64,000 bases of DNA from Neisseria mucosa (GTDB lineage: Bacteria; Pseudomonadota; Gammaproteobacteria; Burkholderiales; Neisseriaceae). The notes under the pieces were generated by a model. That model had not been told where the DNA came from and searched no databases. It was given only the letters and a program-made list of their open reading frames with translations. How positions within the stretch are numbered: position 1 is the stretch's first letter; every line of letters starts with the position of its first letter. Positions 8,603 to 60,168 of this stretch are shown here, in pieces. Made by a program: the position numbers and the translations under genes. The stretch covers positions 1,116,001 through 1,180,000 of the forward strand of contig NZ_CP053939.1 of assembly GCF_013267835.1 (NCBI RefSeq). The letters run 5' to 3'.

Positions 8603-8635
8603 CCCTTTCTTTTCAGACGGCCCCAGCCTCGTTTT

Positions 8636-10225: not shown

Positions 10226-10871
10226 TTACCACCTCTGTTTTGGCCAACTCCTGCCATTTGGCTTCGGGAAACTCATCTTTCAGACGGCCTTTAAGATATT
10301 CCAAGGTATCGCCGGCAACGGTTTCATCTTTGCTGTCGTGAATATGGTTGAAAATCAGGCTGTGCAAGCTGATACCGTATTGTTTGAGCGCGGCGAAGCT
10401 GAGCAGGGTATGGTTGATGCTGCCGAGCCGTCCGCTGGTAACGAGAATGACGGGATAAGCCTGTTGCTGAATATAATCAATGGTTAACAGGTTTTCCGTC
10501 AGAGGAACCATCAATCCGCCCGCGCCTTCGATCAATACGATTTCGTATTGTGCCGCCAATTGCTGCGTGGCGGTGCGGATTTTGTTCAAGTCCAAAGCCC
10601 TGCCGTCCAGACGGGCGGCGAGATGGGGCGAGGCGGGATAGCTGAAGATTTCGGGCATGGTCAGCCGCTGTTTGTCGGCTTCCTGCATGGGTATGCCCAT
10701 GATGTTGCGGTGGACGGCGATGTCGTCGGCGATGTTTTGGCAACCGGTTTGCACGGGCTTTTGCGTGATCACGTTTTTGCCCTGCTGCAACAATTGTTTT
10801 GCCAACATGCCACTGGCGATGGTTTTGCCGATGTCCGTGTCTATGCCGCTGACGAAGTAAACGCCTTTCAT
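10215..10871 (-). CDS. bioD: ATP-dependent dethiobiotin synthetase
   Basis: A 218-aa protein with the BioD P-loop GIDTDIGKT at 9-17 and the conserved QKPVQTG and EGAGGLMVP blocks. It closes the ureido ring of 7,8-diaminononanoate to dethiobiotin using ATP and CO2. The start at 10871 overlaps the bioA stop as ATGA, and its own stop overlaps the ubiC start, so three genes are chained by overlaps. An upstream extension of the frame is out of register with the family and is rejected. Confidence 0.95.
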
Positions 10872-12157: not shown

Positions 12158-12212
12158 ATTCTTTTTAAAGACAGATTGACAATTTTCGTTATTATATAAC
12201 ATCTTTACCTTT

Positions 12213-13118
12213 TCAGACGGCACGTCTTCCATATTGCATCAGCGCCAATCCGATTACGGCCGCCAAACAGCCGGCAACCAAGGAAACATGCAATGCCTCG
12301 CCCAAAAACCAAGCGGAACACAAAATGCCGAATACCGGCACCAAAGTGATGTACGCCGCCGCGCTGCCTGCGCCCAAAGTCTTCACGCCCTCGAAGTACC
12401 ACGCATAGCTCAAGACCGTTGCACCGACAGACAAGCCAATCAAAGCAAACCAGCCCCTGCCGTCCATTTCGGCAAGCATACCAAACGGCAGGCCGTCTGA
12501 AATCAGCGCAGGCGGCAGCAACATCATTGCACCCAACCAAGCGGTGGCCACGGTAACCGTCAGCGCGTCAATCCCCTGCAACACCGCCCGGCCTATCATC
12601 GTATAAGTAACCAAGCAGCAAAGGCTGCAAAACACCAGCACTTCGCCCCACCCTATGCCGCCGCCCGACAAAAATGCCGCAATCTCGCCATGCGTGACCG
12701 CCCATATCGAGCCTGCCACTGCCAACAACATGCCCGACACAATCTTGCCGTTGAGTTTTTCGCCAAACAGCAAAGCCGCAAAAAACATCGTCAACACAGG
12801 ATTGAACGTGACCAACACCGTCGCCCTTGAAGCAGGAATCCGCTGCAAACCCAGCATAGACAACACAGTAAAACCAAATACGCCGAATGCTGCCGCCAAT
12901 GCCAAACCAAGCCATTGTTTACGCGACAAAACCGCCAAAGTACGCAACCGATACCGTGCAAACAGCCAACCCAAAAGCAAGATCGCCGCCGTCAAAAAGC
13001 GCAGCATACCGCCCGTTAAAGGCGGCAGCGCCTGTCCCAACATCCGCCCCATCGGCCAAGATGCGCCCCAAAACGCCGCCATGCCCAATAGTTTTAGATG
13101 GATTGCCAAATGTTTCAT
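12213..13118 (-). CDS. EamA/DMT-family exporter
   Basis: About 301 aa, ten predicted membrane helices in two five-helix repeats (RhaT/EamA fold), starting with the typical [10 protein letters not shown] motif in helix 1. Family members export amino acids or other metabolites; the substrate cannot be read from the sequence. ATG at 13118 is preferred over the GTG two codons upstream. Its stop lies about 55 bases upstream of the bioA start on the same strand, so it may be co-transcribed with biotin genes, but no biotin role is claimed. Confidence 0.85.
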
Positions 13119-13254
13119 AATCACAATAAATGGATAACTTGGATAATCGGTTTAGAAAACGTACAAGCGCAGTTTGGAAGGATAAATTTCCTTAGCCGCC
13201 GATACTTGATAGAGTTTGCGCGGATAAAATACTACGCTGAATCATTACGGAAAC

Positions 13255-13300
13255 AAAGGCCGTCTGAAAGACTGAAACCCAGCTTTTTCAGACGGCCTTT
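13255..13300 (-). terminator. DUS-pair terminator after trpB
   Basis: Perfect 15-bp DUS-containing arms with a 16-base loop, 20 bases past the trpB stop; T tract on the minus strand side. Confidence 0.8.
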
Positions 13301-13319
13301 ACTGCTCAATCAATAAGGC

Positions 13320-14585
<1,266 letters not shown>

Positions 14586-14634
14586 GTAAAAATTGTCAGC
14601 AATTATAGCCGTTTTCCATTCATCTTGTCGGCAA

Positions 14635-15045
14635 CTAATTGAATAATAATATCAGCAGACAAAATAGGAACAACAGCGTACTGCTCGATGTTGCAAGCAA
14701 TGCCGCACCCAACGGCGGCGCAATATATTTTTCTTCGTTTTTGTTTCTCAGGCATATTTTTAGTGCCAACATTCCCAGCCACAATGCCAGCAACCAACAA
14801 CCCAGAAAGTTAAGCACAAGCAAAGCAATAATCAACTCATTGGTATTTATGGTACTTGTGTTCAAAAATATCCAATTAAGGCCGTTAACAGACATAATGA
14901 CTGCAGATATTTGTATCACATACAAAAGCGTTCCGCCCAATAATATCTTGATATGCCATTGTTTGGCCTTCAGCCACACTGAGACGACATTAAAAAGCCA
15001 CCACAAAGCCATAAACGTCATTAAAGAGATTTCATAACGGTCCAT
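14635..15045 (-). CDS. Small polytopic membrane protein, unknown function
   Basis: A 136-aa protein with about four hydrophobic segments (near residues 5-22, 33-52, 70-95 and 110-136) joined by short polar loops, and a very hydrophobic Leu/Phe-rich C-terminus. No family recognised. It starts 4 bases after the stop of the glycosylase-family gene, so the two are probably one transcript. The region is more AT-rich than its neighbours, which may mean a recent arrival. Confidence 0.7.
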   Translation of the reverse strand: MDRYEISLMTFMALWWLFNVVSVWLKAKQWHIKILLGGTLLYVIQISAVIMSVNGLNWIFLNTSTINTNELIIALLVLNFLGCWLLALWLGMLALKICLRNKNEEKYIAPPLGAALLATSSSTLLFLFCLLILLFN

Positions 15046-15049
15046 CGTC

Positions 15050-15652
15050 CTACTCCTGAAAAACAGTCAATCCAGCCGTTTCAAAAAAAGCCCGATACGC
15101 CGCCACTTTTTTCGCCAAACTCAAAGGATAGGCACGCGAAGTCGAAGGCAGGCGCGTCAAGGTCAACTCACGCCCCGCATAGGGAAACGGTACTGTTTCG
15201 CCTGTCTTCGGCATTTTCATGCCGCTGCCTTGAATCTCCAACAAAATTTCGGTTGCCTTACCGCCGGTGGTGCAAAGATGGCAGCACTCGGGCATTTGCG
15301 CCAATACTGCCGCCAAATCGACGGTTTCTATCACTTTTAAAAACTTATCCGAAGCATTGCCATGTTCGCGTATTGCCTTCAATACGGTCGGACAGGATGC
15401 AATGCCCTTCTCACTTAAAAACGCTTTGATTTTATCGGCATCAAACGCCTTTTCGCCCTGCTTTTGAAAATGCGCCGCATCGCCGAAAAACACCAGCCCG
15501 TACACGCGCCACATATCGTTTTGAAAATTCGGATAATGAAACTGCATCGCGTGTTTTTCTTCTTTAGGCGGAAACGTCCCCATCATCATGACCGTTGCCT
15601 GCGGCGGCAACAAGGCTGCGAAGGGGTGGGACTCAACGATTGGCTCTTGCAT
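15050..15652 (-). CDS. Uracil-DNA glycosylase superfamily protein
   Basis: A 200-aa protein. The N-terminal block HPFAALLPPQATVMMMGTFPP has the superfamily's motif A position (GTFPP instead of GQDPY), followed by the block YPNFQNDMWRV and a late LPSTSRAY block matching the motif that inserts into DNA (HPS in classical UDG). This arrangement resembles the deoxyinosine/mismatch-type branch. It would excise damaged bases in the cytoplasm. Lack of the classical Asp in motif A means activity and base choice are uncertain. It lies between trpF and trpB on the same strand. Confidence 0.75.
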   Translation of the reverse strand: MQEPIVESHPFAALLPPQATVMMMGTFPPKEEKHAMQFHYPNFQNDMWRVYGLVFFGDAAHFQKQGEKAFDADKIKAFLSEKGIASCPTVLKAIREHGNASDKFLKVIETVDLAAVLAQMPECCHLCTTGGKATEILLEIQGSGMKMPKTGETVPFPYAGRELTLTRLPSTSRAYPLSLAKKVAAYRAFFETAGLTVFQE

Positions 15653-15688
15653 ATCTGTATTCCGGTTGCTTTGAATTCAAACAAAATT

Positions 15689-16309
15689 TCAGACGGCCTT
15701 TACTGCCTGAATAAACGCCGCCATTTTCTCTCTGCTCTTAACCCCGCCGGAGATTTCCACGCCGCCGGACACATCCACCGCCGCCGCGCCACTGATTTTC
15801 ACCGCTTCGGCAACGTTTTCCGCAGTCAATCCGCCGGCAAGTATCCACGGTTTGCCGATATTGCCGTGCAACATGGTCCAGTCGAAACTTTGTCCCGTAC
15901 CGCCGTATTCGGTCGGATGATAGGCATCAAACAACAAGGCGCGGGCATTCGGAAATTTGGCACAGGCCGTCTGAATATCGGCAGCGGACTGTACACGCAC
16001 GGCCTTCAAATACGGGCGGTCAAACCGACGGCAAAAATCATCGTCTTCATCGCCGTGAAACTGAATCACATCTATCGGCACCTGACGCAAAATCTCACGG
16101 ATGGCTTGCTCGTTTTCATTCACAAACAAGGCCACTACCGATACAAACGGCGGCAGGTTTTTCACAACCGCCTGTGCCTGCTCAATACTCACAGCCCGTT
16201 TACTCTTGGCGTAAAACACCAGCCCGATGGCATCCGCACCCAATTCGGCCGCAGCCAGCGCGTCTTCAGGTCGGGTAATACCGCAAATTTTGGTGCGTAT
16301 GGTGTTCAT
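15689..16309 (-). CDS. trpF: Phosphoribosylanthranilate isomerase
   Basis: A 206-aa TIM-barrel with the family opening [15 protein letters not shown] (catalytic Cys) and the C-terminal phosphate site ([11 protein letters not shown]), preceded by [10 protein letters not shown]. It converts PRA to CdRP in tryptophan synthesis. The last codons and the TGA stop (Ala-Val-Lys-Ala-Val-stop) are encoded by an AGGCCGTCTGA uptake sequence. The reading frame has therefore absorbed a DUS as its terminus. Confidence 0.96.
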
Positions 16310-16362
16310 GGCGATGGCCTTTTTAAACAGATGGGGCGGATATTATATAGTTAACAAACACA

Positions 16363-16414
16363 AAGTTTAAGGCCGTCTGAACATGAAATATCAAGTTCAG
16401 ACGGCCTTAAACTT
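16363..16414. terminator. Extended DUS hairpin, 20-bp perfect arms
   Basis: Both arms contain the DUS plus matching flanks (AAGTTTAA on the outside, C on the inside) with a 12-base loop. It lies 11 bases after the stop of the remnant reading frame on the minus strand, as a terminator would. Confidence 0.75.
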
Positions 16415-16425
16415 CAAAACAACCA

Positions 16426-16497
16426 TCAGCCGATAATATTGGCGGCCGTCAGCTGCGCAGCGTCTTCGTTGTAGAAGCGCAAGAACTCTGTGCTGCC
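16426..16497 (-). pseudogene. 3' remnant of a lost gene
   Basis: A frame of 23 codons ending in TGA has good coding character (STEFLRFYNEDAAQL, then TAANIIG). It is preceded directly by an in-frame TAA and AT-rich noncoding sequence, and is followed by a strong DUS terminator. It looks like the surviving C-terminus of a deleted gene. The parent protein was not recognised. Confidence 0.45.
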
Positions 16498-16689
16498 TTA
16501 GGCTCTGCTTGATATACAGAATATCATACCGATAATTACTAATAACTTTGTAATTATTTTTCTCTTTTCTATTTGCCTATTATTTAATCAAATTTAGTTT
16601 ATTCTTTATTATCAATAATTAAACCAAACTATCCACAATTGGATTCACACAAAATTTGGATAATGCCCGTCAATAATAAAAAAATATCA

Positions 16690-16720
16690 AGGCCGTCTGA
16701 AAAAGTCTTTCAGACGGCCT
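16690..16720 (-). terminator. DUS-pair terminator after comEC
   Basis: 13-bp arms AGGCCGTCTGAAA and complement with a 5-base loop, 11 bases beyond the comEC stop. Confidence 0.8.
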
Positions 16721-16730
16721 GTTATCCTTT

Positions 16731-18956
16731 TTACTCAAACGGTTTCTTCTGCCAATAAAACTTATCCTTTTTTAGGCGGCCTCGGAACACATCATCTTGC
16801 CCCAAAACAAACACCAATGCGCCTGACAAATCTGTTCTCAACAAAGTAATGCCGTGCGCACGGACACGATTTTGTACGGCAATGGTCGGATGTTTGTAGG
16901 CATTGGCATAGCCGCTGGATGCCACGGCATATTGCGGCGAAACCGTATGCAGAAAGCTGCCTGACGAAGCCGTGCTGCTGCCGTGATGTCCCAATACCAA
17001 CACTTGGCTATACAACGCATTGCCGTATTTCTCAATCAAACCGGCCTCGCCCTTCACGCCCAAATCGCCGGTTATCAACAAGGCTTGGCCGTTTGCCACG
17101 ACACGCAATACGCAGCTTTGATCGTTATCTTCCTTACCCGTATTTTCAGACGGCCTGAGCAACTCGAAATCTACGCCGTCCCATTGCCATTTGTCTTCTT
17201 GGCAAAACTCTGCATTCGGATAAAACTCAGGTTGTCCGGCAAGCAATTTATCGGTACCAACAGCCGCTACACTTTGAAAACCGCCGTCATGGTCAATATC
17301 ATGGTGCGACAAAATCAAGCTGTCCAAACGGCGCACACCCATCGCGTTCAAACTCGGCACAATACCTGTTTGCGCCACTTGCTCCGTTCCCGTATCAAAC
17401 AAAAGATTGCGGTTGCGCGTTTGTATCAACACCGACAAACCTTGCCCCGCATCCATCACCGTAACTCTTGCCACCCCCTCCTCCAACTTGGCAGGATGGT
17501 AAAACACAAAACCCAATAAAACCAAACATGCCCAAGGTTTCAAGCCCATTCCTTTAGGCAGCAATAACAGCAAAGCCGCCATCATCGCCAACACCAGCAA
17601 AGGCACGGGCGTCGCTGCAACGGCAAATTCAGGCGATACCGTAGCCAGCCATACCAAACCGCGTAAAGTATATTCCGCCAAAAATGCCGCTACCAACTGG
17701 ACAGGTTCAAACGGAAAAACTGAACCCAGCAAAGCCAACGGCGTCAACACCCAAGAAAACCAAGGAATAGCCAGCGCATTAACCAAGGGACTGAGCAAAG
17801 GTAACGAAGCAAACAAATAGCCCAGCAATACCACCGACAATACCGTCGCCGCCCATTGTCCCCGTACAGCCAAACGCCAGCCCGACTCTTTCAGACGGCC
17901 TGATGAAACCCAAATCAAAGCAGCAACCAAGCCGAAAGACAACCACGTTCCCACACCCAATACGGCCAACGGGTCCAACAACAAAACAACGGCCAAAACC
18001 TGCCACCATGCCGCCCAACCCGAGCCGCTACTGCCGCGCCACCATGCCCACGCAAACGAAGCCAACATCAACACACTGCGTTGCGTCGGTACGGAAAAAC
18101 CGGCCAAAAGCGCATAAAACAAAGCCCCGGCAACACCGCCGGCCAATATCCACACACGCGGTTTCGCCGGAATCCACGGCAAGTAACGGAAAACCCGCTT
18201 GATCAGCCAGGCAAACAATACCGCCACCATCGTTACATGCAAGCCCGAAATACTGACCAAGTGCGTCAGCCCCAAAGGACGGAATGCCTGCCACAAAGGC
18301 GGCCGTAACGCCGATTGCTCACCAATACTCAAAGCACGCATCAACCCTATGCCGTCTGAAAACTCAGGATATTTGTCCGCCGTTCCCTGCCAACTTCGGC
18401 TTACCGCATCACGTATATTAGCCAAACCGAAAGCACCGCCTTGCCGCACAAGTTTCCTATCGCGCCCCAAAGTACCCATGCCGTCGATACCATTGGCCAA
18501 AGCCCATGTTTCACGGTTCAAACCGCGCACATTCACTTCACCGATTACCGGCCTTACCCGCGCCGACACAGACCACCGACTGCCCACCGTCCAATCGCGC
18601 CGCTGATAATCTGACAACATCAAATCAAAAGCCTGACCACGCTCATCCCAAGCCCTTGCCGCAAACTGCACGCGCCGACCATCATCACGCGGCATATCCG
18701 CCACTTCAACCGTTAAAACTTTAGCCGCCACCTCCCCTACAGGCCATTGATCGGCCAAAACCAGCCCGGTCCGCCACACACCAAACGCCATGCCCATGCA
18801 GACGGCCAGCGCCAACCAAGCCACAGCAAATCTTCGACACAACGCAAGCGCACCCATCATTACAGACAACCAAGCCCACCATGGCGGCACAAACGGCAAC
18901 GCAAACGAAAGCACTACCCCAACCACCCAAGCAGGCAACACAAACCGCCACGCCAT
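16731..18956 (-). CDS. comEC: DNA internalization competence protein ComEC/Rec2 (ComA)
   Basis: A 741-aa inner-membrane channel protein for natural transformation. It has N-terminal helices, an OB-like region (about 60-180), the central Competence domain with many helices (about 200-460, including SISGLHVTMVA), and a C-terminal metallo-beta-lactamase-like domain with LSHHDIDHDGG, ITGDLG and LGHHGSSTA. In Neisseria it moves one DNA strand into the cytoplasm after DUS-specific pilin uptake. All metal-ligand motifs are present, so it looks functional. It is monocistronic. Confidence 0.95.
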   Translation of the reverse strand: MAWRFVLPAWVVGVVLSFALPFVPPWWAWLSVMMGALALCRRFAVAWLALAVCMGMAFGVWRTGLVLADQWPVGEVAAKVLTVEVADMPRDDGRRVQFAARAWDERGQAFDLMLSDYQRRDWTVGSRWSVSARVRPVIGEVNVRGLNRETWALANGIDGMGTLGRDRKLVRQGGAFGLANIRDAVSRSWQGTADKYPEFSDGIGLMRALSIGEQSALRPPLWQAFRPLGLTHLVSISGLHVTMVAVLFAWLIKRVFRYLPWIPAKPRVWILAGGVAGALFYALLAGFSVPTQRSVLMLASFAWAWWRGSSGSGWAAWWQVLAVVLLLDPLAVLGVGTWLSFGLVAALIWVSSGRLKESGWRLAVRGQWAATVLSVVLLGYLFASLPLLSPLVNALAIPWFSWVLTPLALLGSVFPFEPVQLVAAFLAEYTLRGLVWLATVSPEFAVAATPVPLLVLAMMAALLLLLPKGMGLKPWACLVLLGFVFYHPAKLEEGVARVTVMDAGQGLSVLIQTRNRNLLFDTGTEQVAQTGIVPSLNAMGVRRLDSLILSHHDIDHDGGFQSVAAVGTDKLLAGQPEFYPNAEFCQEDKWQWDGVDFELLRPSENTGKEDNDQSCVLRVVANGQALLITGDLGVKGEAGLIEKYGNALYSQVLVLGHHGSSTASSGSFLHTVSPQYAVASSGYANAYKHPTIAVQNRVRAHGITLLRTDLSGALVFVLGQDDVFRGRLKKDKFYWQKKPFE

Positions 18957-28100: not shown

Positions 28101-28108
28101 AGAATTTT

Positions 28109-28121
28109 GGCACGCCCACGA
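28109..28121. repeat. 13-bp copy of tRNA-Glu 3' end (putative attachment site)
   Basis: TGGCACGCCCACG is identical to the last 13 bases (CCA end) of the complete tRNA-Glu at 37082. Together the two copies bound the accessory region as direct repeats. The sequence beyond the 13 bases does not match. Confidence 0.75.
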
Positions 28122-28146
28122 GTATAACTATCGGCACACAAAATAC

Positions 28147-31100
28147 TTACTGGTAGTTCAAATGTTGCTTCAATTGAGCTTCCTCAAGCCATCGTAAAGC
28201 ATGATGACGGTCCAGTTCTTCTCGCTCCACATTGCTATCACTACCCGCCAGGCAATGCTGACAAACGCTACCACAATCAGCTGGACAATTCAAACGGTCT
28301 AAAGCGCGACTTATGATACCGTTGATGTCATCTACAGCAGATAAAACGAAACCTGCGCCCCCTTCGGCTTTGTCGTAAATCTGAATCAAACAGCGAACGG
28401 CACCTGTTTCCAAATCTCTATCTGCTCGCACGGCATAGCCCATTTCAGTAGTTTCTATCCCCAAAAAAGCAGCAATTTCATCGCGTACAGCAACGGCAAT
28501 CGTGCGGGCGGTAGTTTTATCTCCACTGCCTAGCCATGCCTTGGTTTGTGGATTTTTCAGAGCAATTTCCAATACATCGGTTGAGATATGATGGCCCAGA
28601 TGGATATTGATCTGAACATTACTATTAGGACAATCTTTACTATTACTGCTAAGATCCAAACCACCACCCAAGGTTTTATGATACTCACCCAAAAATACAT
28701 TAGGCAGTTCACCTACGTCAGTCATGGAATCAGCCCTACCACATCTCATGCAAACCGCAAAACCTTTTTCATGCTTGCCACTAGAGCGAAACAGTACTCT
28801 ACCGTCACTACCATATCTAATTTCACCACACTCATGTTTTAGAAAGGCTACAGTTTCATCATCCAATTGTACTCTAGGAGGCTGGATAGGAACGAATGTT
28901 TGGAAGGAAACATCGTTGCTACTTTTTTCAAAAAAGTCAGTCAAAAAACCTGTTGGGGTTAGTACCGTACATTGTTCATCAAAAGGAATATTTTCACCGC
29001 AGTGAGAACATTGGATATCATTACAGCTATATTTGTAACGCGTCACGCCAGATGTACCGCAGTTTTTACAGCGCCACGCAGTATCGAAACGTTGGTCTTC
29101 GTTTTTACCTCGTTCATCCGATTTTACCCGTAGATTGATGCCAGCAGAACGGTATACGCGCCCATCTAATACAACATCCGAACCAGGTGCGTATTCACGC
29201 AGTGCAATATCCAAACTACGACTTGGGTTTTCTTTGCGGATGAACAGATTATCTTCTCGCTCCTCTCGTTCACGGCGTAAGTCTTCCATTTTACGGATTT
29301 TCATTTCTACTATGCCAGTAGGGAAACCATAACCAGGTAGAAATGCGTTTACCGCCAGATAGCCAAGCAGGTTCTCATTTTCATGTAGTTGTTTCTCGCG
29401 ATTTAAGGCTTTCTTGTATGAATCGCTGTTAGTTTGCTTAATTTTATGGTTGATATTGTGAAAATCAGCCTGCCAATTCTCTGCCAATTCCAGCAGCCGC
29501 TGTTTAGCACTTGCTTTGATACGTGTCAATGGTACTCCTTCCAAAGCAGTACCTGCCGCCAGTTTACCCAAAGCTTGGTCAATAGCAGAGCATTCTGGTG
29601 AGTTCATCCAGTCGCAAAACTGCTGCCAAACAGATTGGGTTGGATTGAAAAACCAAGCAGTATTCAGCTTAGTACGGTCTTTGCCTGTATCGCTGCGCTT
29701 GGCAAGAAATGCTGCCAATAAGAGCGAATGCATATGGCGGCTGACAATTTTTTCAGAGCTTAACGATACTTTCGGAGCAGCAATAGCAGTAGTAAACGCC
29801 CATTTTGGATTGGTAAATACACGGCGATTATGAGGATCATTTTTGCATAGTGTATAAGCTATTGCAGCTGCTTCGCTACGACGGCCTGCACGACCGGCAC
29901 GTTGCAGGTAATTAGCAGGGTGTGGTGGTACATTATTCATTACCACTGCTGCCATACCGCCGATATCCACACCCATTTCCATTGTAGTAGAGCAGCTCAA
30001 TACATTAATTTTCCCTTCTTTGAACATCTGTTCGTATCTGTTTAATTGTGTAGATGCAATTTGTGCTGAATGTTCCGCCGCACGATAGTAGAAACCTCCT
30101 TCTACGATTTTATCGTTCAAATTGCTCCACAAACCTTCTTGGCGCAAGTGGCCTACATCTTTATCTTGCCTCAGCAAACGACGCATTTGGCTACGACGAG
30201 GTTCAGCAGTGGCATCCTGTTTAAAACGATAATAATCTGGAATCTCAGTTTTGCTGCAAAACAGTTTTTCAGACGGCATTTCCTGCCAGTTACCAGGCAA
30301 ATAAGGAGACACACCGCGCAAAGTAGTATCGATCAGGCGGTGACTTTGCGGACAAATCCACATTTCTTTTTCAGGTAACTTAAACGCCATTGCTGAAAGC
30401 GGCATTTTCCAAGCATCAGCATCGGGATACAGGATATTGCTACCAGTAGTCAATTGTTTCCACGCAGTTTTCAGCCACGAATTAATTTTGTGTTTAGCCA
30501 AAGGGTTTTGAATATCCAGACCTGTAACCGCCTGCAAAATTTTGACTGCTCGAGGCTGTTGGCCTTTATCTCGAACTTGCGGCCAAGCTCGTTTACGCAA
30601 AGTTTGCTTTTCTCTGGTATCGGGCGGCAGCAGGGATTTTCCCGAAAAGCGTTTGCCCAACCATCGTTTTTTCTGCTCATCTAAATTGGTAAAGGAATTT
30701 TCACGGACATGAAAATCCAAAATCATTTTTAAAAATGCTTTCCAATCATCCAAATCCAGCGGCTTGCTTGGATTGTCTGCCTGATTTAAAACGCGTGTCT
30801 CTACCCAACCATCAGGCACTGTGCTGATTTTATCCAGACTAGGATAACAAATCATTGTCAAACCTAAGGTTTCCAAACTATTGGCATTTCTTGGGCGGCG
30901 GATAAATTCGCGTGCCAGTAGCAACTCTGCCAGCTTTTCTGCTCCGTTGCCACTAGGATCATTAAATATGCTGGGATTGGTTTCTCGATTGTAAGGCAGT
31001 AAATCTTGCGTCATTTCAGCTTTATCGCGCAGTGTACGGCACATATCATCCCAAGTAAGATGAGTTTTTTTACCACTAGAACCTTTCCATAGAATTTGTT

Positions 31101-33231
31101 CTGCCAAAGCAGGATTAGCTTGCATCAATGCAACCAAATCAGGATTAGCTTGCATCAGTGCAACCAACTCAGGCAACATGGCTTCTGCTTTGCCTGTTCC
31201 CTGCACCAATACATCAAACACCATACCACGCAATTTGGAATACTCTGCTTCCTGCTGCATTTTTACCGCCATTCTCGCTGTGCCTTGACGGCTGTCAGTA
31301 AAAGTAATTAATCGCCGTCCACGAGCGGGTAGCGATTGCGGATCATTTTCAGCATCACTACAAAATTCCAATACAGTCGGAACAGCGTGGGTTACATAAA
31401 ACGGTGCACCCAAATATTGTCCATGATAAAACGGCATTCTTTGGTTTTCTTTGCCGCAGGCGGAACAGCAGGCCTGTAGGGAGAAATCCAAAGCCAACTC
31501 AAAAGTTTTACCTTGCTGTACGCCGATTTGCGCAGTTTCTTTATCGATTTTTTGTACCGTATAGCCTTCAGACTGCATATCGACTGGGGCTGCAAGCACT
31601 TTATTGCGGGATATGAATTGTAGACCATCTGAAATTGGGTTTGCGTCGTCACCACTGTCTTCTTCGTCATTAGCTGCAGGCTCAGGATTGAGTGCAAACT
31701 CATCGGTGATGTAGGTATCGCACTGCTGCAAAATACCGTCATGCTCCTGCGCCATCAAGTGCGGTGTACCGCAATCTTGGCACAACACTAATTCGTACAC
31801 AGGAGCACCACAATCACATTTAGTTCTGCGGTTAAGATAAACCTGTCCAAATAGCCAGTCTTTAAGGTAACCTTCTTTTTTGCTGCAATGACGGTCAGCA
31901 CACGCCCATAACCCGTGCAGCATTGATTGAAATAGATGCAAACGCAGTTTTAAAAATGGTTCAGCATTTTCAGACGGCTTTGTCTGAGTCATAACATCCA
32001 GCCAGTCTAAAACTTCACGCTGCTGTTCATAAAGGCTATCAGAAAGCAAATATGCTTGCGTTGCCTGTATCAATTGGTTCAACGTGTAAGGTTGGGTATT
32101 AGCTGTCAGACAATTACGCAGAGTAGTGGCCATTACACTTTGACAAAGGGCTGCAAAGCGTTCGGTTTCGTCCTTAATAGATGTGATATCTGCGATGCTC
32201 TGTCTACCATCGGCAACACTAATCGGCAAAAAATCGCGGCTTCCAGAAACTACCAGGACATGTTCCTTTGGTACCCCAGCCAAATCAGCAAGATAGCAGC
32301 GAAGTTCGTCTGCTGCTTTGTCGGAAGCAATGGTGGCTGATGTAGCAACAAAGCGTATGTCCTCGGGCTTTTTGCCGAAAGCGTGTACTACACGGCGTAA
32401 TAACAGTGCAATTTCTGCCGCCTGCGATCCGATATAACTATGTGCCTCGTCTAATACTATCCAGCGCAATGAACCTGTTTGGCGAGATTTTTCCAAAATA
32501 GGGGCATCTACTTGGCGCACCAGCATATATTCCAACATAGTGGCATTAGTAAGTAGGATAGGCGGAGGCTCTTTGCGTAGCAATTCCCGTGACAAGATTT
32601 GGTTAGGTTGATCTTTGTCACGTGTTCCAGCACTTTCTTTTGTGTTACCGTTATAAAGACAAAAGCGAATTTTGTTACCAAAAGGTTTCGTCCATGCATC
32701 CAAACGTTCCTTTTGAGAATTGATTAAAGCATTAAGTGGGTAGAGAAACAGAGCCTGAACACCGATAAGTGCTGTTTTCTCCAACGTTTGGCGACGTATC
32801 AGATCTTCTAAGATCGGAATCATAAAACATTCAGTTTTACCTGATCCTGTGCCACTCGTAATGATGGCAGATTTTGGAGCATCCCCCAGAAGATGCTTCC
32901 ATGCCTGCAACTGATGAGTATAAGGGCGGGCAGTTTTGGGAAAACCATATCTGTCTGCATCTGCTAACACATCTGTAAGTTTTGTAGAAAACAGGTTTTG
33001 TCTTACCAAATCTGCAAAGGTACAGTCCGCGCTTTTCCAACCAAAGGTATGTTCAACAACAGGGTCAGCAAGAAAACAGTTTTCATTACCCAATTCATTG
33101 CTAATCAATTGTCGCAGGTGACTGCGCAATTGATTATCTGTAATATCCAATACGCCAATAGTAGCTTCCTTGATACGGTTCAGACTTTGCTCTATCAATC
33201 CGGAAAGAGTTTGCATGGTGTCGGTATTCAT
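28147..33231 (-). CDS. druE: Druantia DruE-like DEAD/H-box helicase with DUF1998-type C-terminus
   Basis: A 1,694-aa superfamily 2 helicase. RecA-1 lies at about 100-310: HQLQAW Q-motif-like region, Walker A SGTGSGKT at 126-133, DEAH at 261-264 and SAT at 298-300. RecA-2 ends with TTMEMGVDIGG and QRAGRAGRR near 1075-1110. About 750 residues of insert lie between the two. The C-terminal part has several Cys clusters (near 1395-1425 CKNCG and CSHCG; near 1495 CMRCG), then a DUF1998-like block with IYDKAEGGAGF and CPADCG/CQHC near 1620-1665. This is the design of DruE, the hallmark of Druantia anti-phage systems. Its ATG overlaps the upstream stop as TAATG, so translation is coupled. DISARM DrmA/DrmB would split helicase and DUF1998 over two genes. 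Confidence 0.8.
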   Translation of the reverse strand: MNTDTMQTLSGLIEQSLNRIKEATIGVLDITDNQLRSHLRQLISNELGNENCFLADPVVEHTFGWKSADCTFADLVRQNLFSTKLTDVLADADRYGFPKTARPYTHQLQAWKHLLGDAPKSAIITSGTGSGKTECFMIPILEDLIRRQTLEKTALIGVQALFLYPLNALINSQKERLDAWTKPFGNKIRFCLYNGNTKESAGTRDKDQPNQILSRELLRKEPPPILLTNATMLEYMLVRQVDAPILEKSRQTGSLRWIVLDEAHSYIGSQAAEIALLLRRVVHAFGKKPEDIRFVATSATIASDKAADELRCYLADLAGVPKEHVLVVSGSRDFLPISVADGRQSIADITSIKDETERFAALCQSVMATTLRNCLTANTQPYTLNQLIQATQAYLLSDSLYEQQREVLDWLDVMTQTKPSENAEPFLKLRLHLFQSMLHGLWACADRHCSKKEGYLKDWLFGQVYLNRRTKCDCGAPVYELVLCQDCGTPHLMAQEHDGILQQCDTYITDEFALNPEPAANDEEDSGDDANPISDGLQFISRNKVLAAPVDMQSEGYTVQKIDKETAQIGVQQGKTFELALDFSLQACCSACGKENQRMPFYHGQYLGAPFYVTHAVPTVLEFCSDAENDPQSLPARGRRLITFTDSRQGTARMAVKMQQEAEYSKLRGMVFDVLVQGTGKAEAMLPELVALMQANPDLVALMQANPALAEQILWKGSSGKKTHLTWDDMCRTLRDKAEMTQDLLPYNRETNPSIFNDPSGNGAEKLAELLLAREFIRRPRNANSLETLGLTMICYPSLDKISTVPDGWVETRVLNQADNPSKPLDLDDWKAFLKMILDFHVRENSFTNLDEQKKRWLGKRFSGKSLLPPDTREKQTLRKRAWPQVRDKGQQPRAVKILQAVTGLDIQNPLAKHKINSWLKTAWKQLTTGSNILYPDADAWKMPLSAMAFKLPEKEMWICPQSHRLIDTTLRGVSPYLPGNWQEMPSEKLFCSKTEIPDYYRFKQDATAEPRRSQMRRLLRQDKDVGHLRQEGLWSNLNDKIVEGGFYYRAAEHSAQIASTQLNRYEQMFKEGKINVLSCSTTMEMGVDIGGMAAVVMNNVPPHPANYLQRAGRAGRRSEAAAIAYTLCKNDPHNRRVFTNPKWAFTTAIAAPKVSLSSEKIVSRHMHSLLLAAFLAKRSDTGKDRTKLNTAWFFNPTQSVWQQFCDWMNSPECSAIDQALGKLAAGTALEGVPLTRIKASAKQRLLELAENWQADFHNINHKIKQTNSDSYKKALNREKQLHENENLLGYLAVNAFLPGYGFPTGIVEMKIRKMEDLRREREEREDNLFIRKENPSRSLDIALREYAPGSDVVLDGRVYRSAGINLRVKSDERGKNEDQRFDTAWRCKNCGTSGVTRYKYSCNDIQCSHCGENIPFDEQCTVLTPTGFLTDFFEKSSNDVSFQTFVPIQPPRVQLDDETVAFLKHECGEIRYGSDGRVLFRSSGKHEKGFAVCMRCGRADSMTDVGELPNVFLGEYHKTLGGGLDLSSNSKDCPNSNVQINIHLGHHISTDVLEIALKNPQTKAWLGSGDKTTARTIAVAVRDEIAAFLGIETTEMGYAVRADRDLETGAVRCLIQIYDKAEGGAGFVLSAVDDINGIISRALDRLNCPADCGSVCQHCLAGSDSNVEREELDRHHALRWLEEAQLKQHLNYQ
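31111..31170 (-). repeat. 30-bp tandem duplication inside druE
   Basis: Two adjacent 30-base units, differing at two positions, encode the decapeptide (E/D)LVALMQANP twice in a row within the inter-domain insert. The frame is kept. It appears to be a recent in-frame duplication. Confidence 0.9.
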
Positions 33232-36200
33232 TATGATTCACTCACTAGGTAGCAGCTCAGGGAAGCGCAGACGTAATCAAACCATTCTGCATCCAAAGCG
33301 TAAATACGATAAAAAGCATCAGCAAACTGTGCAGCAGTCATTTCTAATGGCATGATATCTGAAGGCTGCGCATTGCCTGCTTTAACACAGGCAGTAAATA
33401 CTGGTAGCCAGACAACTGTACGGTCAAAAGGAACTTTGGACAGACTGCGTACTTTATTGAAAAATACATCCTGTTGTTTCTCCAACCATTTTTGCAGACC
33501 ATCCGAAAGCGTTTCAGGAATACGTTGGTTTTTATTCTGACGCAATGCATTGTAATGGCGGTTATAACGTGAATCGTGCTTCTTGTCGAAAATTTCCCCA
33601 AGCGTGTTTTCCACCACTATCATTTCTATTTCTGAAAGAAATCCTTTAAATACATGATTGCGTAAAATCTCGTCATGGCACAACACACTTGTAGGAATAC
33701 AGTTTTCAGACAAGGGAAAATCATCAGGATTCAAGCCTGTAGCTGCAATTTTGGTACGAATGTATGGTTTGTACGTACTTATGGCAGCAAACCAATCTTG
33801 TAGAGCTAACCACTCCCATACCACAGCTAATTCGTTACGCATCCGCTCGCAAAATACACCATCCAACCCTAAGCGTAATACCGCCAAAGCTAAGGCTTTG
33901 GGCTGTTGTACCAAGGCTTTCCATGTTTCAAATACTGACAATGGCAGATGAGAAAAATGCTGCTTTAGGCTCTCAAAATACAGCCAACCAGAATGCTCAG
34001 GATTACCCACCATTTCCGTAATGATACGGCTAATAGCTTCGGGATTGTGGTTTGGATGGAAAGCGCGTGCAGCAATATGCAGGGAATGATGTTGAAATGG
34101 TTCGATAAATTTTTCACTGCTGTTTTCAAATATAGCAGGACGGAATTGAACTGGTGATTCAGGCGCAGGGTAAATCAACCACAATCCTTCATCATATTGT
34201 TCGGACGACAGTTGATAATGCCCATTTATCCTCATTGCGCTTTCAGGCAGCCTTTGTGCACCTTTTTCAGGTGCATCCAAGCGCATGATGTTTACTACCG
34301 CTTCTCGGCAAGTCAATTCGTCTTCTGCCTGCCGTTTGATGACGAAGCTTTTTCGTAATGCATCTGTCACTGCCAGAATACCGAAACGGTAAAACTGATT
34401 ATTCCACATAACTAGACCATTATAACGAGACAAGATAAGCCGTATCAAAGGGTTCTCTGAACCCATATGGCACACTGTAATTTCTACCTGGGCATCTTGA
34501 CTACTGCTGCACGATAAAAGCTGCAAAAGTTGCGGTTTCCATTGATCTAAGAAAAACTGCTGCACCGAACCATCTGCTGACAAACGTTCGCTGATAGAAA
34601 TGGGGCGACCATGCACATTATCCGATAATTTAAATACCAGCCTCATATCGGTCGATGCGGAGGAATATACCATTATCCACTTGCCTAGCAACTGATTGAT
34701 ATTCAGACGGCAATCATCAATTCTACCTTTTTCATCATATAGATACGCACCATTAAACGGTAGAGGTAGTCTTAATCGTGCAGCTTGAACAGGGTTACTT
34801 CCAACTGCAAGAATAATATGAGATGGATAATTACTATCCTCAGTTTGGCAGATAAATCTAAATCGAGAATGGATTTGTGTGATATCTAGATGCTTGGCAA
34901 AGACATCTATGAAAACCTTTTCGGAAGTATTAACATTTAAAATGGCGGGATCTTTGTTGCTTGCTGCTTGCCAAGTATAGGAAAAATCTTCAGGCAGGAC
35001 AGTAATTTTACGCCGCAACAAACAAATTGCACCCTTATAGAAAGCCACCTGAAATGTACCATAATAGTTCGGGCAGATATTTGATTGGACCTCGCCGTTG
35101 ATTTTGATGTGCGTCGGAGATAAGTCAGGGGGCGTTAGCAGAGTAGGAAAACCACGATACACAGGTAAACCATCAGTATTTTGGCAGTGATAAAACAGTC
35201 TCCCATGCAAAATACTCTGTTCTGTCTGATTAGCTTGCACAACAACTATTTCTCGCCCATCCGCATGACGAGCAGTCAGTCCGTCCGAACACTTAAACCA
35301 CTGCCCGCCCAAATAGGAGACATTTTCATTTTCAGACAACCTAAAACCGTCTGGTAGATGAATCAAAATATCCCTATCTTTACTGCGCGTGTATTCATTA
35401 GTAGAGAACAGTTGCCAACGTTGATCTTGAGCAGAGTGAAACACCAGCGGTGCATCTTCATCAAATCCAGTATCTCCAAACAACTTGGTATAGAGCAGTC
35501 GCCCGCCAGCAAACACTCGCACAGACAAAGGTAGACTAGGTTTCTCTCGGACAAAATCAAGCTGTTTCCCAAAAGGAAGTTTGAATGTTAGCTCTCCGCC
35601 TGTATCACTAAGAGAAGCAAATACTGTTGCTCCCATTTGGGCAACTGGCTCTTCTCCTTCAAAAATTTGCCATTGTAAAACCGTTTCACCCTGATAATTC
35701 TGAATAGGGAAACTAAATTTTTCAGGTAACCCGATTTTAGCATGCAAGCACCAACCTCCCTCCTTTACATAATGCCGACAGGAGAACTCTTGCTTTTCCA
35801 ATTTTTGACGTTCGTCTGCTGCATTACCCAACCAGCGGTTGATAACTGCATCTACCTGTTTCCCATCCAAAGCAAAAGGAAACTCACTGCGCCAACCACT
35901 ATCTGCCTGATCTAGGTATTCAACCAAATTACGTTTATTCTTCAAGTCAAACCGCTCAGCGAGCTTGACTAGCGCTCTGACTGTATCGGCAAATAGAATA
36001 ACAGCCGCAGTATCACGAAATACTTGTGCCAGTCTATACACTCTTTCAGCAATATATTCTTCTAAAGGGCGGAAAGTTTCCATACTCTCCTGATATTTTT
36101 TCAAGCCATAATCAATAATATTGCGAATAGCATTATCATCAGCTGCAAGCATTTTCAGTGGTAATCCACCTTCAGCAACTAATGTACCAAGATAACGCGT

Positions 36201-36578
36201 ATTTTTAGCAGCGTCATATTTCCATTCTCGCCGCCAATATGCCAACCCTTTTTTCAAATATTTGTAACGTTGCTGTTCATTATCAAATTGCGTACCTATT
36301 ACATTATCGAAAAATGCCCAACTCCATTCACCACCCGAATACTCACGCCGATAAGTTTCACTAACTGCCAGACAGTAACAGGCACACCATTCCTCCTGAT
36401 AAACAGAACCCGATATCAAAAAAGGCTTACGATAAAACAGTGCACACAGTTCACGGTATTCATTTTCATTAACTGCATAAGTATACAGTGGCCCACCATT
36501 CGGAATAGGATTAAGTGGATCACGATTAAAAAAGAAATGTGATAACCAACTCTTAAACGGGTTTGTAAGATTTTTCAT
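33231..36578 (-). CDS. druH: Druantia DruH-like protein (STY4851/ECs_5259 family)
   Basis: About 1,115 aa, no signal peptide or membrane helix. A conserved RYLGTLVAEGGLPLKML segment occurs near residues 128-146, which I recall as typical of the STY4851/ECs_5259 family, the large protein paired with DruE in type III Druantia. The middle is beta-rich and the last ~250 residues helical; no nuclease or nucleotide-binding motif is visible. The first ATG (36578) is used; a TTG five codons upstream is possible. It overlaps druE by one base. The gene is AT-rich. Family recall is from memory, so homology search is the test. Confidence 0.72.
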   Translation of the reverse strand: MKNLTNPFKSWLSHFFFNRDPLNPIPNGGPLYTYAVNENEYRELCALFYRKPFLISGSVYQEEWCACYCLAVSETYRREYSGGEWSWAFFDNVIGTQFDNEQQRYKYLKKGLAYWRREWKYDAAKNTRYLGTLVAEGGLPLKMLAADDNAIRNIIDYGLKKYQESMETFRPLEEYIAERVYRLAQVFRDTAAVILFADTVRALVKLAERFDLKNKRNLVEYLDQADSGWRSEFPFALDGKQVDAVINRWLGNAADERQKLEKQEFSCRHYVKEGGWCLHAKIGLPEKFSFPIQNYQGETVLQWQIFEGEEPVAQMGATVFASLSDTGGELTFKLPFGKQLDFVREKPSLPLSVRVFAGGRLLYTKLFGDTGFDEDAPLVFHSAQDQRWQLFSTNEYTRSKDRDILIHLPDGFRLSENENVSYLGGQWFKCSDGLTARHADGREIVVVQANQTEQSILHGRLFYHCQNTDGLPVYRGFPTLLTPPDLSPTHIKINGEVQSNICPNYYGTFQVAFYKGAICLLRRKITVLPEDFSYTWQAASNKDPAILNVNTSEKVFIDVFAKHLDITQIHSRFRFICQTEDSNYPSHIILAVGSNPVQAARLRLPLPFNGAYLYDEKGRIDDCRLNINQLLGKWIMVYSSASTDMRLVFKLSDNVHGRPISISERLSADGSVQQFFLDQWKPQLLQLLSCSSSQDAQVEITVCHMGSENPLIRLILSRYNGLVMWNNQFYRFGILAVTDALRKSFVIKRQAEDELTCREAVVNIMRLDAPEKGAQRLPESAMRINGHYQLSSEQYDEGLWLIYPAPESPVQFRPAIFENSSEKFIEPFQHHSLHIAARAFHPNHNPEAISRIITEMVGNPEHSGWLYFESLKQHFSHLPLSVFETWKALVQQPKALALAVLRLGLDGVFCERMRNELAVVWEWLALQDWFAAISTYKPYIRTKIAATGLNPDDFPLSENCIPTSVLCHDEILRNHVFKGFLSEIEMIVVENTLGEIFDKKHDSRYNRHYNALRQNKNQRIPETLSDGLQKWLEKQQDVFFNKVRSLSKVPFDRTVVWLPVFTACVKAGNAQPSDIMPLEMTAAQFADAFYRIYALDAEWFDYVCASLSCYLVSES
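34242..34253 (-). repeat. Foreign-dialect uptake sequence AGGCTGCCTGAA inside druH
   Basis: On the minus strand the 12-mer AGGCTGCCTGAA lies in frame (Arg-Leu-Pro-Glu). It matches the DUS dialect I recall for Simonsiella-type Neisseriaceae and differs from the AGGCCGTCTGAA of this chromosome at two positions. Confidence 0.6.
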
Positions 36579-36608
36579 AATAAAAATTGGCAATTGACTT
36601 AGATCGAA

Positions 36609-36617
36609 ATTATATCA
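36609..36617 (-). promoter_or_regulatory. Extended -10 promoter of druH-druE
   Basis: The minus strand shows TGATATAAT, a TGn-extended consensus -10 box, 31 bases before the druH ATG. There is no good -35, which an extended -10 does not require. Confidence 0.55.
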
Positions 36618-37039
36618 GCATATAAAAAACATTTGGATTTTAAGTGCAGCACCTAGACCAATCTTACAAACCTAATATAAAAAATAGCATATCAGACGCC
36701 TACAACCCAAAAACTTACAGATAGGCTTATTAAATATACACCTCCTCAATGGATTTCATAGAAGGGAAATTAATCTATTCTTTTTTCAGTACTTTCAACA
36801 TGATTTTCGTTTTCACAATTTCTTCCCCTATTTATCTTCTAAGTTTAATGACCATCAATTACATCAATGAGACACTCTTTTGCCTTTTCTGAATGATGGT
36901 ACCCATCCACCAGTCATCGATACATTATTTTTAGTTAATGTAGAACACCCAGAAATGTCGAATAGGCCGAGTATTTCGCTCCTAGCCCACGTTTACAGTA
37001 GAGTTTAAAGATGTACAAGCAGTACCATAGTGACAAAGA
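36618..37039. other. 422-bp AT-rich noncoding end of the island
   Basis: No intact gene. A decayed minus-strand frame of 22 codons at 36845-36913 (Leu-Val-Asp-Gly-Tyr-His-His-Ser start, stop TAA at 36845) is preceded by an in-frame TGA. It may be the tail of a lost recombinase or cargo gene. No DUS occurs here. The area near 36960-37030 is less AT-rich and unassigned. Confidence 0.4.
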
Positions 37040-37074
37040 AATAAACCCTTACTATTTTTTAGTAAGGGTTTATT
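37040..37074 (-). terminator. Terminator after the second tRNA-Glu
   Basis: Perfect 15-bp arms (AATAAACCCTTACTA and complement) with a 5-T loop, 7 bases beyond the tRNA CCA end. It is unrelated in sequence to the terminator at 28065, which stands beside the tRNA remnant. Confidence 0.85.
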
Positions 37075-37081
37075 CAAAATA

Positions 37082-37157
37082 TGGCACGCCCACGGGGATT
37101 CGAACCCCGGTTGCCGCCGTGAAAGGGCAGTGTCCTAGGCCTCTAGACGATGGGCGC
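37082..37157 (-). tRNA. tRNA-Glu (TTC), second copy and island insertion site
   Basis: A 76-nt cloverleaf with acceptor GCGCCCA/TGGGCGT, anticodon loop CTTTCAC (TTC) and CCA encoded. The body differs from the copy at 19125 in the D-arm and anticodon-stem bases. Its 3' 13 bases recur at 28109. Confidence 0.97.
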
Positions 37158-38264: not shown

Positions 38265-39050
38265 ATGATGTTGGGCGCAGTCATCGGCGATATTGCCGGA
38301 TCACGATTCGAGTTTGACAACTACCGTCACACCGATTTCGATATTTTCAGCCCCGACAGCGACTTTACCGATGACACGATTTGCACTGTTGCCATTGCCG
38401 ACTGGGTTTTACAAGGCTGCAACGATAATTTAGCCTCTATTTTACAAGGCTGGTGCAGGGCATATCCCTGTCCAAAAGGCGCATATGGCAGCCGCTTCTC
38501 ACAATGGATAGAATGGAAAAATCCTGCACCTTATAATAGCTGGGGCAACGGCTCTGCCATGCGTGTTTCTGCCGTTGGCTGGGCATTTGCCACATTGGAA
38601 GAAACCCTGCATTTTGCCGAACAATCCGCCGCCGTAACGCACGACCACCCGGAAGGCATTAAAGGCGCGCAAGCCGTAGCCGCCGCCATCTTTTGGGCGC
38701 GTACCGGCATGGGCAAAGCGCAAATCAAAGAAAACATTACGCGACAATTCGGCTATGATTTGAGCCAAAGTTGCAACCAAATCCGCCCGCATTATCATTT
38801 CAACGAAAGCTGTCAGGAAACCGTACCTCAAGCAGTTACCGCCTTTCTTGAAAGCGATAATTTTGAACACGCCATCCGACTGGCGGTTTCCCTGGGCGGA
38901 GACAGTGATACCTTGGCAGCCATTACCGGCAGCATTGCCGAAGCCTACCATGGTATCTCTGCATCCATGCGCGAACACGCTTTAGCCATATTGCCACGCC
39001 GCATTGCTGAAACCCTGCTGACTTTTGAATCCCAATATCAGGCCGTCTGA
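38265..39050 (+). CDS. ADP-ribosylglycohydrolase family protein
   Basis: A 261-aa DraG-fold protein with the expected metal and ribose site motifs: GAVIGDIAGSRFEF at the start, DSDFTDDT at about 36-43, HDHPEGIKGAQA near 127-138 and SLGGDSDTLAAI near 210-221. It would remove ADP-ribose from a protein or small molecule in the cytoplasm. No ADP-ribosyltransferase gene is nearby. The terminal Gln-Ala-Val-stop is encoded by a DUS (AGGCCGTCTGA). Start at 38265 or the next codon. Confidence 0.87.
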   Translation: MMLGAVIGDIAGSRFEFDNYRHTDFDIFSPDSDFTDDTICTVAIADWVLQGCNDNLASILQGWCRAYPCPKGAYGSRFSQWIEWKNPAPYNSWGNGSAMRVSAVGWAFATLEETLHFAEQSAAVTHDHPEGIKGAQAVAAAIFWARTGMGKAQIKENITRQFGYDLSQSCNQIRPHYHFNESCQETVPQAVTAFLESDNFEHAIRLAVSLGGDSDTLAAITGSIAEAYHGISASMREHALAILPRRIAETLLTFESQYQAV

Positions 39051-39073: not shown

Positions 39074-39505
39074 ATGATGAAATACCTTGCCCTACTTCCC
39101 GTCGCCTTCATGCTGGGTACGCCTGCCATTGCCGAAACCATCAATCCTTATCAGGAAAAAGGTTGCGTTTACGATGGTGATATTGGCAAAGACGGCAAAC
39201 CATCCGGCAAAGGCACATGGAAATGCCAAGACGGCCGCAGCTATGTCGGCGCCTTTAAAAACGGCAAATTTGACGGCAAAGGCGTATATACCGTTTCCGG
39301 CAACAGCGAGACCTTTATCGAACCTTTCTCCTCCAACAGCGCCAAATTACGCAATATGACGCTGGAGGGCGTGTTCAAAAAAGGCAGGGCGCACGGAAAC
39401 TTTACCGCCTCCCAAAACGGCACACCCGTCTTCATCATGAAATGCGAAGACGGTATGATTAAAGAAGTCAAACTGGCTAAGAAATCTGCTTCCAAAACCA
39501 AATAA
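39074..39505 (+). CDS. Exported protein with MORN-like repeats
   Basis: A 143-aa protein with a signal peptide cleaved near TPAIA-E. It contains MORN-type motifs: [33 protein letters not shown]. Two or three Cys residues could form disulfides, and the tail is basic. It is probably periplasmic. It lies 23 bases after the ADP-ribosylglycohydrolase gene on the same strand, so co-transcription is possible. Confidence 0.78.
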
Positions 39506-60101: not shown

Positions 60102-60128
60102 GTATTGAATTAAATTATACATACATTC

Positions 60129-60157: not shown

Positions 60158-60168
60158 CCGAACCATAA

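Follow-up and report, generated by a model that had tools for sequence, protein, structure and literature searches.

Druantia type III has been described most closely in Escherichia coli, where DruE, with two C-terminal PLD domains, is treated as a helicase-nuclease that loads onto 3' single-stranded DNA (ssDNA), and where DruH, made of helical ends and three immunoglobulin-like (Ig-like) domains, is likely a sensor with a dimer-dependent nuclease (PMC13192584; structures 9tu7 and 9tud). A second pair, MSMEG_1253/1254 of Mycolicibacterium smegmatis, contains in its authors' view no canonical nuclease domain and stops circularization and replication of phage DNA, electroporated phage DNA included (PMC13316683). 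For both systems a late structural protein of the phage has been reported as the trigger of DruH (PMC13192584; PMC13316683). Druantia III is already known to spread on tRNA-targeting islands, and the nuclease is mostly missing in a separate type III-like branch (PMC12458937); the M. smegmatis system probably belongs to this branch, III-B.

Here we describe a druH-druE pair of Neisseria mucosa, located in a 64,000-nucleotide stretch of contig NZ_CP053939.1 (assembly GCF_013267835.1, positions 1,116,001 to 1,180,000), hereafter the window. The pair is probably a working Druantia III system that has no nuclease region, resembles that of M. smegmatis, and accounts for all sizeable genes in a 9-kb insertion at a tRNA-Glu gene. 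We favor this reading because both proteins match the DruE3, DruH3 and YjiT models, the core helicase residues are kept, the differences from a close short relative (P0003) appear constrained, and the insertion has an exact empty counterpart. A first-pass annotation of the sequence had already proposed a Druantia III-like locus; the missing C-terminal region of DruE and the insertion at tRNA-Glu with no visible integrase go beyond it.

A Druantia type III gene pair in Neisseria mucosa

The pair consists of the following genes:
33231 to 36578, minus strand: druH, 1,115 amino acids (aa) from an ATG start; PADLOC DruH3, 576 bits; NCBIfam NF038336, 554 bits; PDB 9tud, E = 7.6e-10
28147 to 33231, minus strand: druE, 1,694 aa from an ATG start; superfamily 2 helicase with a DEAH box, of YprA/DruE type, which stops after its MZB zinc domain

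Both frames are open on the minus strand and overlap at TAATG (...TCATAATGAAT...), which bears out the two overlapping genes of the first-pass annotation. The mechanically called open reading frame (ORF) of druH is slightly longer (33231-36593, 1,120 aa) and begins at an upstream TTG at 36593. The true start is likely the ATG at 36578, because the relative P0123 is also 1,115 aa long, with an alignment that begins at that residue, and because an ATG start gives the same length, 1,115 aa, for the Neisseria sp. HMSC077D05 DruH. The druE translation holds all the helicase motifs previously listed (Walker A as GTGSGKT, DEAH, SAT and QRAGRAGR), and its DUF1998-like end proved to be the Pfam domain MZB (MrfA zinc-binding domain, PF09369, called DUF1998 in papers) at residues 1580-1661, after DEAD at 105-304 and Helicase_C at 1048-1118. 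DruH had no domain in the Pfam copy searched. The host genus had been read correctly as Neisseria: the core of the DNA uptake sequence (DUS), GCCGTCTGAA, occurs 89 times in the window versus 0.12 expected.

The assignment to Druantia type III rests on sequence, with PADLOC and NCBIfam models matched over nearly the whole length of both proteins. DruE matched DruE3 (PDLC00037) along residues 5-1691 (2,128 bits), equivalent to profile positions 2-1680 of 2055. DruH matched 11 PADLOC families, all of them DruH3, the best being PDLC00050 (576 bits, residues 10-1118). The first-pass annotation had named two results that would speak against it, a first protein that matches no DruH/STY4851 model or a helicase with a better full-length match outside defence. 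Instead, NF038336 (STY4851/YjiT) scored 554 bits against a cutoff of 150, and the best full-length model for DruE was DruE3, while the 21 NCBIfam helicase models that touched it gave partial matches only, all under cutoff. By sequence, DruE matched E. coli DruE (PDB 9tu7, 2,108 aa) with 1,034 bits, and DruH matched 9tud (E. coli DruH) in its N-terminal part, residues 6-262. The gene druH lies directly upstream of druE in the same operon, the gene arrangement expected of Druantia III, and none of the eight neighboring ORFs matched any Druantia family in PADLOC, accessory genes of types I and II included; they gave only two weak matches, SspA and DndA, both to one ORF.

A structure prediction of DruH (mean predicted local distance difference test score 85.6, from a 46-sequence alignment) gave helical ends and a long beta middle, in broad agreement with the description of E. 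coli DruH, and in that respect the proposed comparison stood. It did not extend to the fold search: 9tud was absent among the 50 Foldseek matches listed for the model (library to April 2026). The matches were weak and at the level of domains, and the model therefore supports only a middle rich in beta-sandwiches.

The window DruE lacks the C-terminal region

The locus shares with E. coli Druantia III (L106, a plasmid record that contains a 9tu7 peptide and supplied the E. coli DruE sequence) the druH-druE order and orientation, and its DruE aligns to residue 1723 of 2,108 with identical core helicase residues. It differs in that no ARMADA or Zorya gene lies among the window neighbors scanned and, above all, in that DruE has no C-terminal region of about 380 residues. 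The two C-terminal PLD domains of the E. coli-like form, III-A (PMC12458937), are thus absent: the protein reaches position 1680 of 2055 in the DruE3 profile and then ends, its last aligned residues corresponding to E. coli 1720-1721. The end of the 9tu7 match at 1723 is itself uninformative on the missing part, because the match of P0004, the nearest full-length relative (2,058 aa, 84% identity), stops at 1724 although P0004 continues through the PLD region.

We therefore relied on a C-terminal profile, made from the corresponding part of 114 full-length DruE relatives. It matched P0004 (305 bits, 1701-2056) and the E. coli L106 DruE (124 bits, 1744-2087), but none of eight short DruE entries (window, P0003, P0009, P0016, P0045, P0098, P0111 and L105, of which P0098 and L105 both represent one Azotobacter chroococcum protein family and are possibly one case). 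Nor did it match in the six frames of the window, L023, L055, L090, L094, L103 or L105. The label PLD for this region follows the papers; with Pfam, no PLD domain is assigned to P0004, P0022 or the L106 DruE. A frameshifted pseudogene at the druE end was considered and rejected: there are only 26 bp between the stop and the left repeat of the insertion, the tail is shared with P0003, and no window frame matches the C-terminal profile. A C-terminal part encoded elsewhere was likewise rejected, as the corresponding part of P0004 had no match in 46 Neisseria genomes, this one included, while the control was positive in 3 of 3 genomes with DruE. Without this region, DruE must either work differently from the E. 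coli system or be impaired.

The system of M. smegmatis offers the closest parallel in size, with a DruH of 1,132 aa and a DruE of 1,667 aa whose domain set also ends in DUF1998 (PMC13316683). It differs in being actinobacterial, and the likeness drawn here is one of sizes and domain descriptions.

Short DruEs recur at one boundary

Among 7,995 scored candidates we found 4,434 DruE relatives, of which the best 120 were listed. Six of these are short (1,681-1,719 aa), 114 are full length (2,049-2,118 aa) and none lies between. The window DruE, the six short relatives and the DruE of HMSC077D05 (L024) all end at about E. coli residue 1717-1731, with stray last residues misplaced by the aligner excluded. 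From a genome scan the best 80 of 567 loci were kept, three of them cut before the DruE end (L047, L050 and L056). The C-terminal profile matched 72 of the other 77, in one case (L085) on a separate ORF, and was unmatched in five (L024, L055, L090, L094 and L103). In 369 genomes sampled evenly across the class, 10 had a match at E <= 1e-80, the window among them: eight with frames of 2,078-2,121 aa, one partial (G295) and the window DruE as the sole complete short one.

On a FastTree phylogeny of 59 rows, 13 of them labelled as being without the region, the trait required 11 changes, at least nine forced by well-supported branches. Shuffled labels on that tree required 12 changes on average, and 141 of 500 shuffles required as few as 11; the observed number is near the shuffled mean, and the trait is therefore about as scattered as chance labels. 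Two of the 13 labelled rows are doubtful, L085 with its region on another ORF and L024, which looks broken at a contig end, and for this reason we set the count of independent changes of the C-terminal region, as read from these sequences, at no fewer than seven, some of them possibly gains. The window DruE is nested among PLD-bearing sequences with local support of 100 and 96; the named III-A and III-B representatives stand outside this tree. Several of the short DruEs come from metagenomes without context, and the Azotobacter one from a complete annotated plasmid.

The closest pair outside the window is that of Neisseria sp. HMSC077D05 (KV797092.1, L024/L023), which is orthologous (84% identity in DruE, 77% in DruH) and has a 1,683-aa DruE that ends at the same boundary. 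In contrast to the window pair, it sits on a contig other than that of its serS and rdgC. Its DruE shares 96% identity with full-length P0004, and 195 bp remain between the DruE stop and the contig end. This shortening therefore looks, from the sequence, like a separate and recent break. Breakage by an insertion sequence is unproven: the 195 bp behind this DruE may hold a transposase-like motif, and Pfam finds nothing in a 71-aa ORF there.

The DruE of A. chroococcum plasmid pAcX50f (WP_052264098.1, L105) is also short, gives no C-terminal profile match and stands beside a YjiT-family DruH. It differs in its lower identity (48.7%) and its surroundings, with toxin-antitoxin genes nearby and, beyond druE, a small hypothetical gene, an MBL-fold hydrolase and, about 6.6 kb on, an annotated endonuclease. 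A nuclease gene right behind short DruEs was considered as a general rule and rejected. The next gene is a carbonic anhydrase in L103, the small hypothetical followed by the MBL-fold hydrolase in L105, a 341-aa ORF with no Pfam match in L090, and an 87-aa ORF without a match, at the contig end, in L055. At L094, two PD-(D/E)xK genes lie behind druE on the opposite strand, and a separate nuclease is possible at that locus.

Some relatives have other architectures. In L085 (Stutzerimonas stutzeri KOS6, 8632-17357) the 2,051-aa DruE frame departs from the DruE profile near position 1776, and another ORF, some 1.2 kb further on, carries the C-terminal region; this DruE is split or interrupted. The DruH relatives P0127 (1,552 aa) and P0131 (1,521 aa), and by their length P0125 and P0128, are extended at the N terminus by about 400 residues that read as coiled coil; Pfam finds nothing in P0127 or P0131. 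P0127 and the short DruE P0009 both come from contigs of 10,756 bases and may be neighbors.

The pair occupies an insertion at a tRNA-Glu gene

The insertion and its surroundings comprise the following features:
28121 to 37094: inserted island, 8,974 bp missing from the empty site (one copy of the 13-bp repeat counted)
28108 to 28120: left 13-bp direct repeat, TGGCACGCCCACG, att-like, equal to the tRNA-Glu 3' end
37082 to 37094: right 13-bp repeat, within the tRNA-Glu 3' end
37082 to 37157, minus strand: tRNA-Glu (TTC), the insertion target; found by ARAGORN, Rfam tRNA 54.3 bits; the same tRNA stands at the empty sites
36579 to 37081: region upstream of druH, 32% GC, longest ORF wholly inside 47 aa; presumed promoter region
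37035 to 37081: terminator of tRNA-Glu; five other Neisseria genomes have this type after tRNA-Glu, and it differs from the one at the empty site L017
26687 to 27982, minus strand: serS, left flank; NCBIfam TIGR00414, 559.8 bits
37291 to 38190, plus strand: rdgC, right flank; Pfam RdgC, 340 bits

In BLAST comparisons, four relatives with an empty site (L017-L020) align to the window on both sides of the island, as far as 28120 and from 37082 onward, the two alignments overlapping by 13 bp, and in two more distant ones (L021 and L022) serS and rdgC are about 0.4 kb apart with no insertion. The island, flanked by serS and rdgC, holds only the two sizeable ORFs. It thus has the structure of a satellite-like, tRNA-targeting integrative element, inserted at a tRNA 3' end between direct repeats, as do the E. 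coli Druantia III islands (PMC12458937); it differs from those in that no integrase was seen and in its repeat of 13 bp instead of 16-20 nt (PMC12458937). No integrase ORF and no other ORF of useful length was seen in the island, integrase models not having been run on its small ORFs.

The island appears foreign in composition. Its GC content is 42.7%, compared with 49.9% in the rest of the window, and it holds three DUS cores where 14 are expected, versus 86 in the 55,026 bp outside; the DUS 12-mer AGGCCGTCTGAA occurs 0 times in the island versus 67 times in the rest of the window. This paucity suggests, at the level of sequence, an origin outside this uptake dialect. The island holds one copy of ATGCCGTCTGAA, which we take to be the DUS form of N. 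meningitidis and N. gonorrhoeae. Across the 46 Neisseria genomes, DruH was found in two, the present one included, and a full-length DruE match in the same two; at a loose threshold 45 of the 46 match DruE, the others only around residues 1012-1146, and we take these short matches for ordinary helicase domains.

About 47 bp adjoining the tRNA are a terminator of the type that stands behind tRNA-Glu in G007, G013, G019, G024 and G026 (6 of 46 genomes with this one), while the terminator of the empty site L017 differs, and the L017 type lies in the window beyond the left repeat. The tRNA-proximal edge is therefore probably derived from another Neisseria, judging from this terminator. A nearly identical palindromic terminator is common to several Neisseria tRNA-Glu genes (L108-L114), at two different tRNA-Glu loci. 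A 30-mer containing the left repeat copy had a single match, its own, in the 46 genomes at up to three mismatches. This structure would fit either integrase action at the 13-bp core or transformation by homology in the tRNA with microhomology at the far end. With the druE stop 26 bp from the left repeat, one event may have both removed the C-terminal region and fixed the island's far end.

A phage origin of the island was considered and dropped, with no near match in 50,697 phage records; in viral contigs no close DruE relative was found (a single-protein query with three pattern matches, none confirmed). A 482-bp stretch upstream had no plasmid match, and a scan for promoters and terminators upstream of druH gave nothing over chance. 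Elsewhere in the window, an ADP-ribosylglycohydrolase-family gene (38265-39050, Pfam 129.6 bits) lies directly behind rdgC, followed by a small gene with a MORN-repeat match in Pfam (39074-39505), and GC content dips to 40.5% in 60001-61000 around a 211-aa ORF (60193-60828).

Conservation of the helicase core and constraint on the short form

In an alignment of 29 DruEs, the E. coli residues K121, R165, D251 and R1135, mutation of which abolishes defence, and R1372, mutation of which strongly impairs it (PMC13192584), correspond to window K132, R176, D261, R1114 and R1338, and all are kept, as are E252 (E262) and R1139 (R1118). The residues assigned to the ssDNA path of E. coli DruE (PMC13192584) are kept as well (N156, R207, N221, Y227, R231, R647 and R652).

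The short relative P0003 belongs to a cluster of 250 sequences, is 95% identical to the window DruE and has the same tail. The two differ at 1 of 468 conserved columns versus 35 of 760 variable ones (Fisher p = 7e-7); in the comparison pair of P0004 and L024 the differences number 0 of 468 and 25 of 759. The 24 other relatives on which conservation was scored included short ones, and the count omits residues 670-735, a stretch that is likely recombinant, together with columns covered by few rows and those conserved at 60-90%. This pattern in the sequences argues against simple decay, although recombination with full-length alleles could mimic it. Between the window and HMSC077D05, the ratio of nonsynonymous to synonymous substitution rates (dN/dS) is 0.081 for druE and 0.164 for druH, and most of this divergence may be older than the truncation. 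Together with the model matches, this orthologous pair speaks against frames that are open by chance. With the identities of 84% and 77% given above, DruE is the more conserved of the two proteins, a pattern also reported in PMC13192584.

Function of the pair and alternative explanations

A short DruE can defend, since the M. smegmatis pair with its 1,667-aa DruE blocks phage (PMC13316683). By analogy, the Neisseria pair may act in the same manner; we infer its activity, its trigger and its source of cleavage. DruH would sense infection, probably through a late phage structural protein. DruE would then load on the 3' ssDNA of phage replication intermediates and unwind or occupy it with ATP. 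As the window DruE has no PLD region, any damage to DNA would be the work of DruH or host nucleases, or else the helicase would block replication.

Several observations weigh against a working system. The Foldseek search with the DruH model gave 18 matches at E <= 0.001, mostly to repeat or Ig-like proteins, with template modeling scores of 0.06-0.11 by query length and at most 0.23 by target length among the 50 listed. E. coli DruE loses defence on mutation of R1258 in the PLD pocket (R1258A), of R2075 at the C-terminal interface (R2075A), or of H1415, K1546, H1572 and H1574, also at that interface, in combination (PMC13192584); the window has serine at R1258, nothing at R2075 and Q, L, P and N at the four interface positions. 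This counter-evidence is weakened in that most relatives among the 29 rows, full-length ones included, also differ from E. coli there. Nor does the window retain N596, R601, R914 and Q1477, which are among the duplex or DNA contacts of E. coli DruE and at which most relatives likewise depart from E. coli, and the ATP-contact residues of E. coli DruH (N672, Y733, D735, R1064 and K1067) are not conserved in the window DruH, in what is an uncertain alignment.

The main rival takes the locus for a decaying remnant: a full element would have entered, a deletion at its far end would have taken the druE C-terminus and any integrase, and the rest would be functionless. The coincidence of the loss with the island edge, the continuation of P0004 through the PLD region and the need for PLD-pocket and C-terminal interface residues in E. 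coli (PMC13192584) all agree with such a history. We nevertheless consider it unlikely, given that both frames are open, that short DruEs of other lineages end at this boundary too and that the differences from P0003 largely spare conserved columns, with the reservation on recombination made above. It is less likely still that a nuclease is supplied in trans, from another genomic locus or by a second defence system such as Zorya. The E. coli DruE nuclease is dispensable when Zorya II cleaves (PMC13192584), and the E. coli plasmid relative L106 has zorA2 adjoining DruH-DruE; against this, the P0004 C-terminal part is unmatched in the Neisseria genomes, and the eight neighboring ORFs, the part of the genome scanned for Zorya or nucleases, gave only the weak SspA and DndA matches. 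A role outside defence, for example in DNA repair or the control of transformation, would fit a YprA family whose relatives include repair helicases (PMC12458937) and a naturally transformable host genus, but we regard it as very improbable, with defence models as the best full-length matches, a DruH partner present and a sporadic island found in two of 46 genomes. A working, nuclease-less Druantia III pair accordingly remains the reading we prefer.

A broader and more tentative idea, which we think may well be wrong, is that the nuclease is a detachable effector module of PLD-bearing Druantia III, lost many times at one boundary to leave a selected helicase-only DruE. Phage would then be stopped by DruH cleavage together with the helicase, or by the helicase alone, and the Neisseria island would offer a compact natural example. 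If so, incoming ssDNA in a Neisseria host could make a PLD nuclease costly.

Implications

Loss of the PLD region within the E. coli-like branch is not mentioned in the available portions of the three type III papers (PMC13192584, PMC13316683 and PMC12458937). No title in the literature searched brought Druantia and Neisseria together, and mention inside papers naming both, or in supplements, is possible; PMC9090908 names both, with nothing on the two together in the portion available. As far as these limited searches show, the Neisseria case with its empty site is new, as is a C-terminal module lost repeatedly at one boundary within a group that usually bears it.

Neisseria are naturally transformable. 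As DruE acts on ssDNA, an effect of the pair on transformation is conceivable, as pure inference. Work in E. coli casts DruE as a helicase-nuclease effector, and a recurrent form without the nuclease lets the roles of the helicase and of DruH be asked alone. The locus places Druantia in Neisseria, at a meeting point of defence, DNA uptake and recombination.

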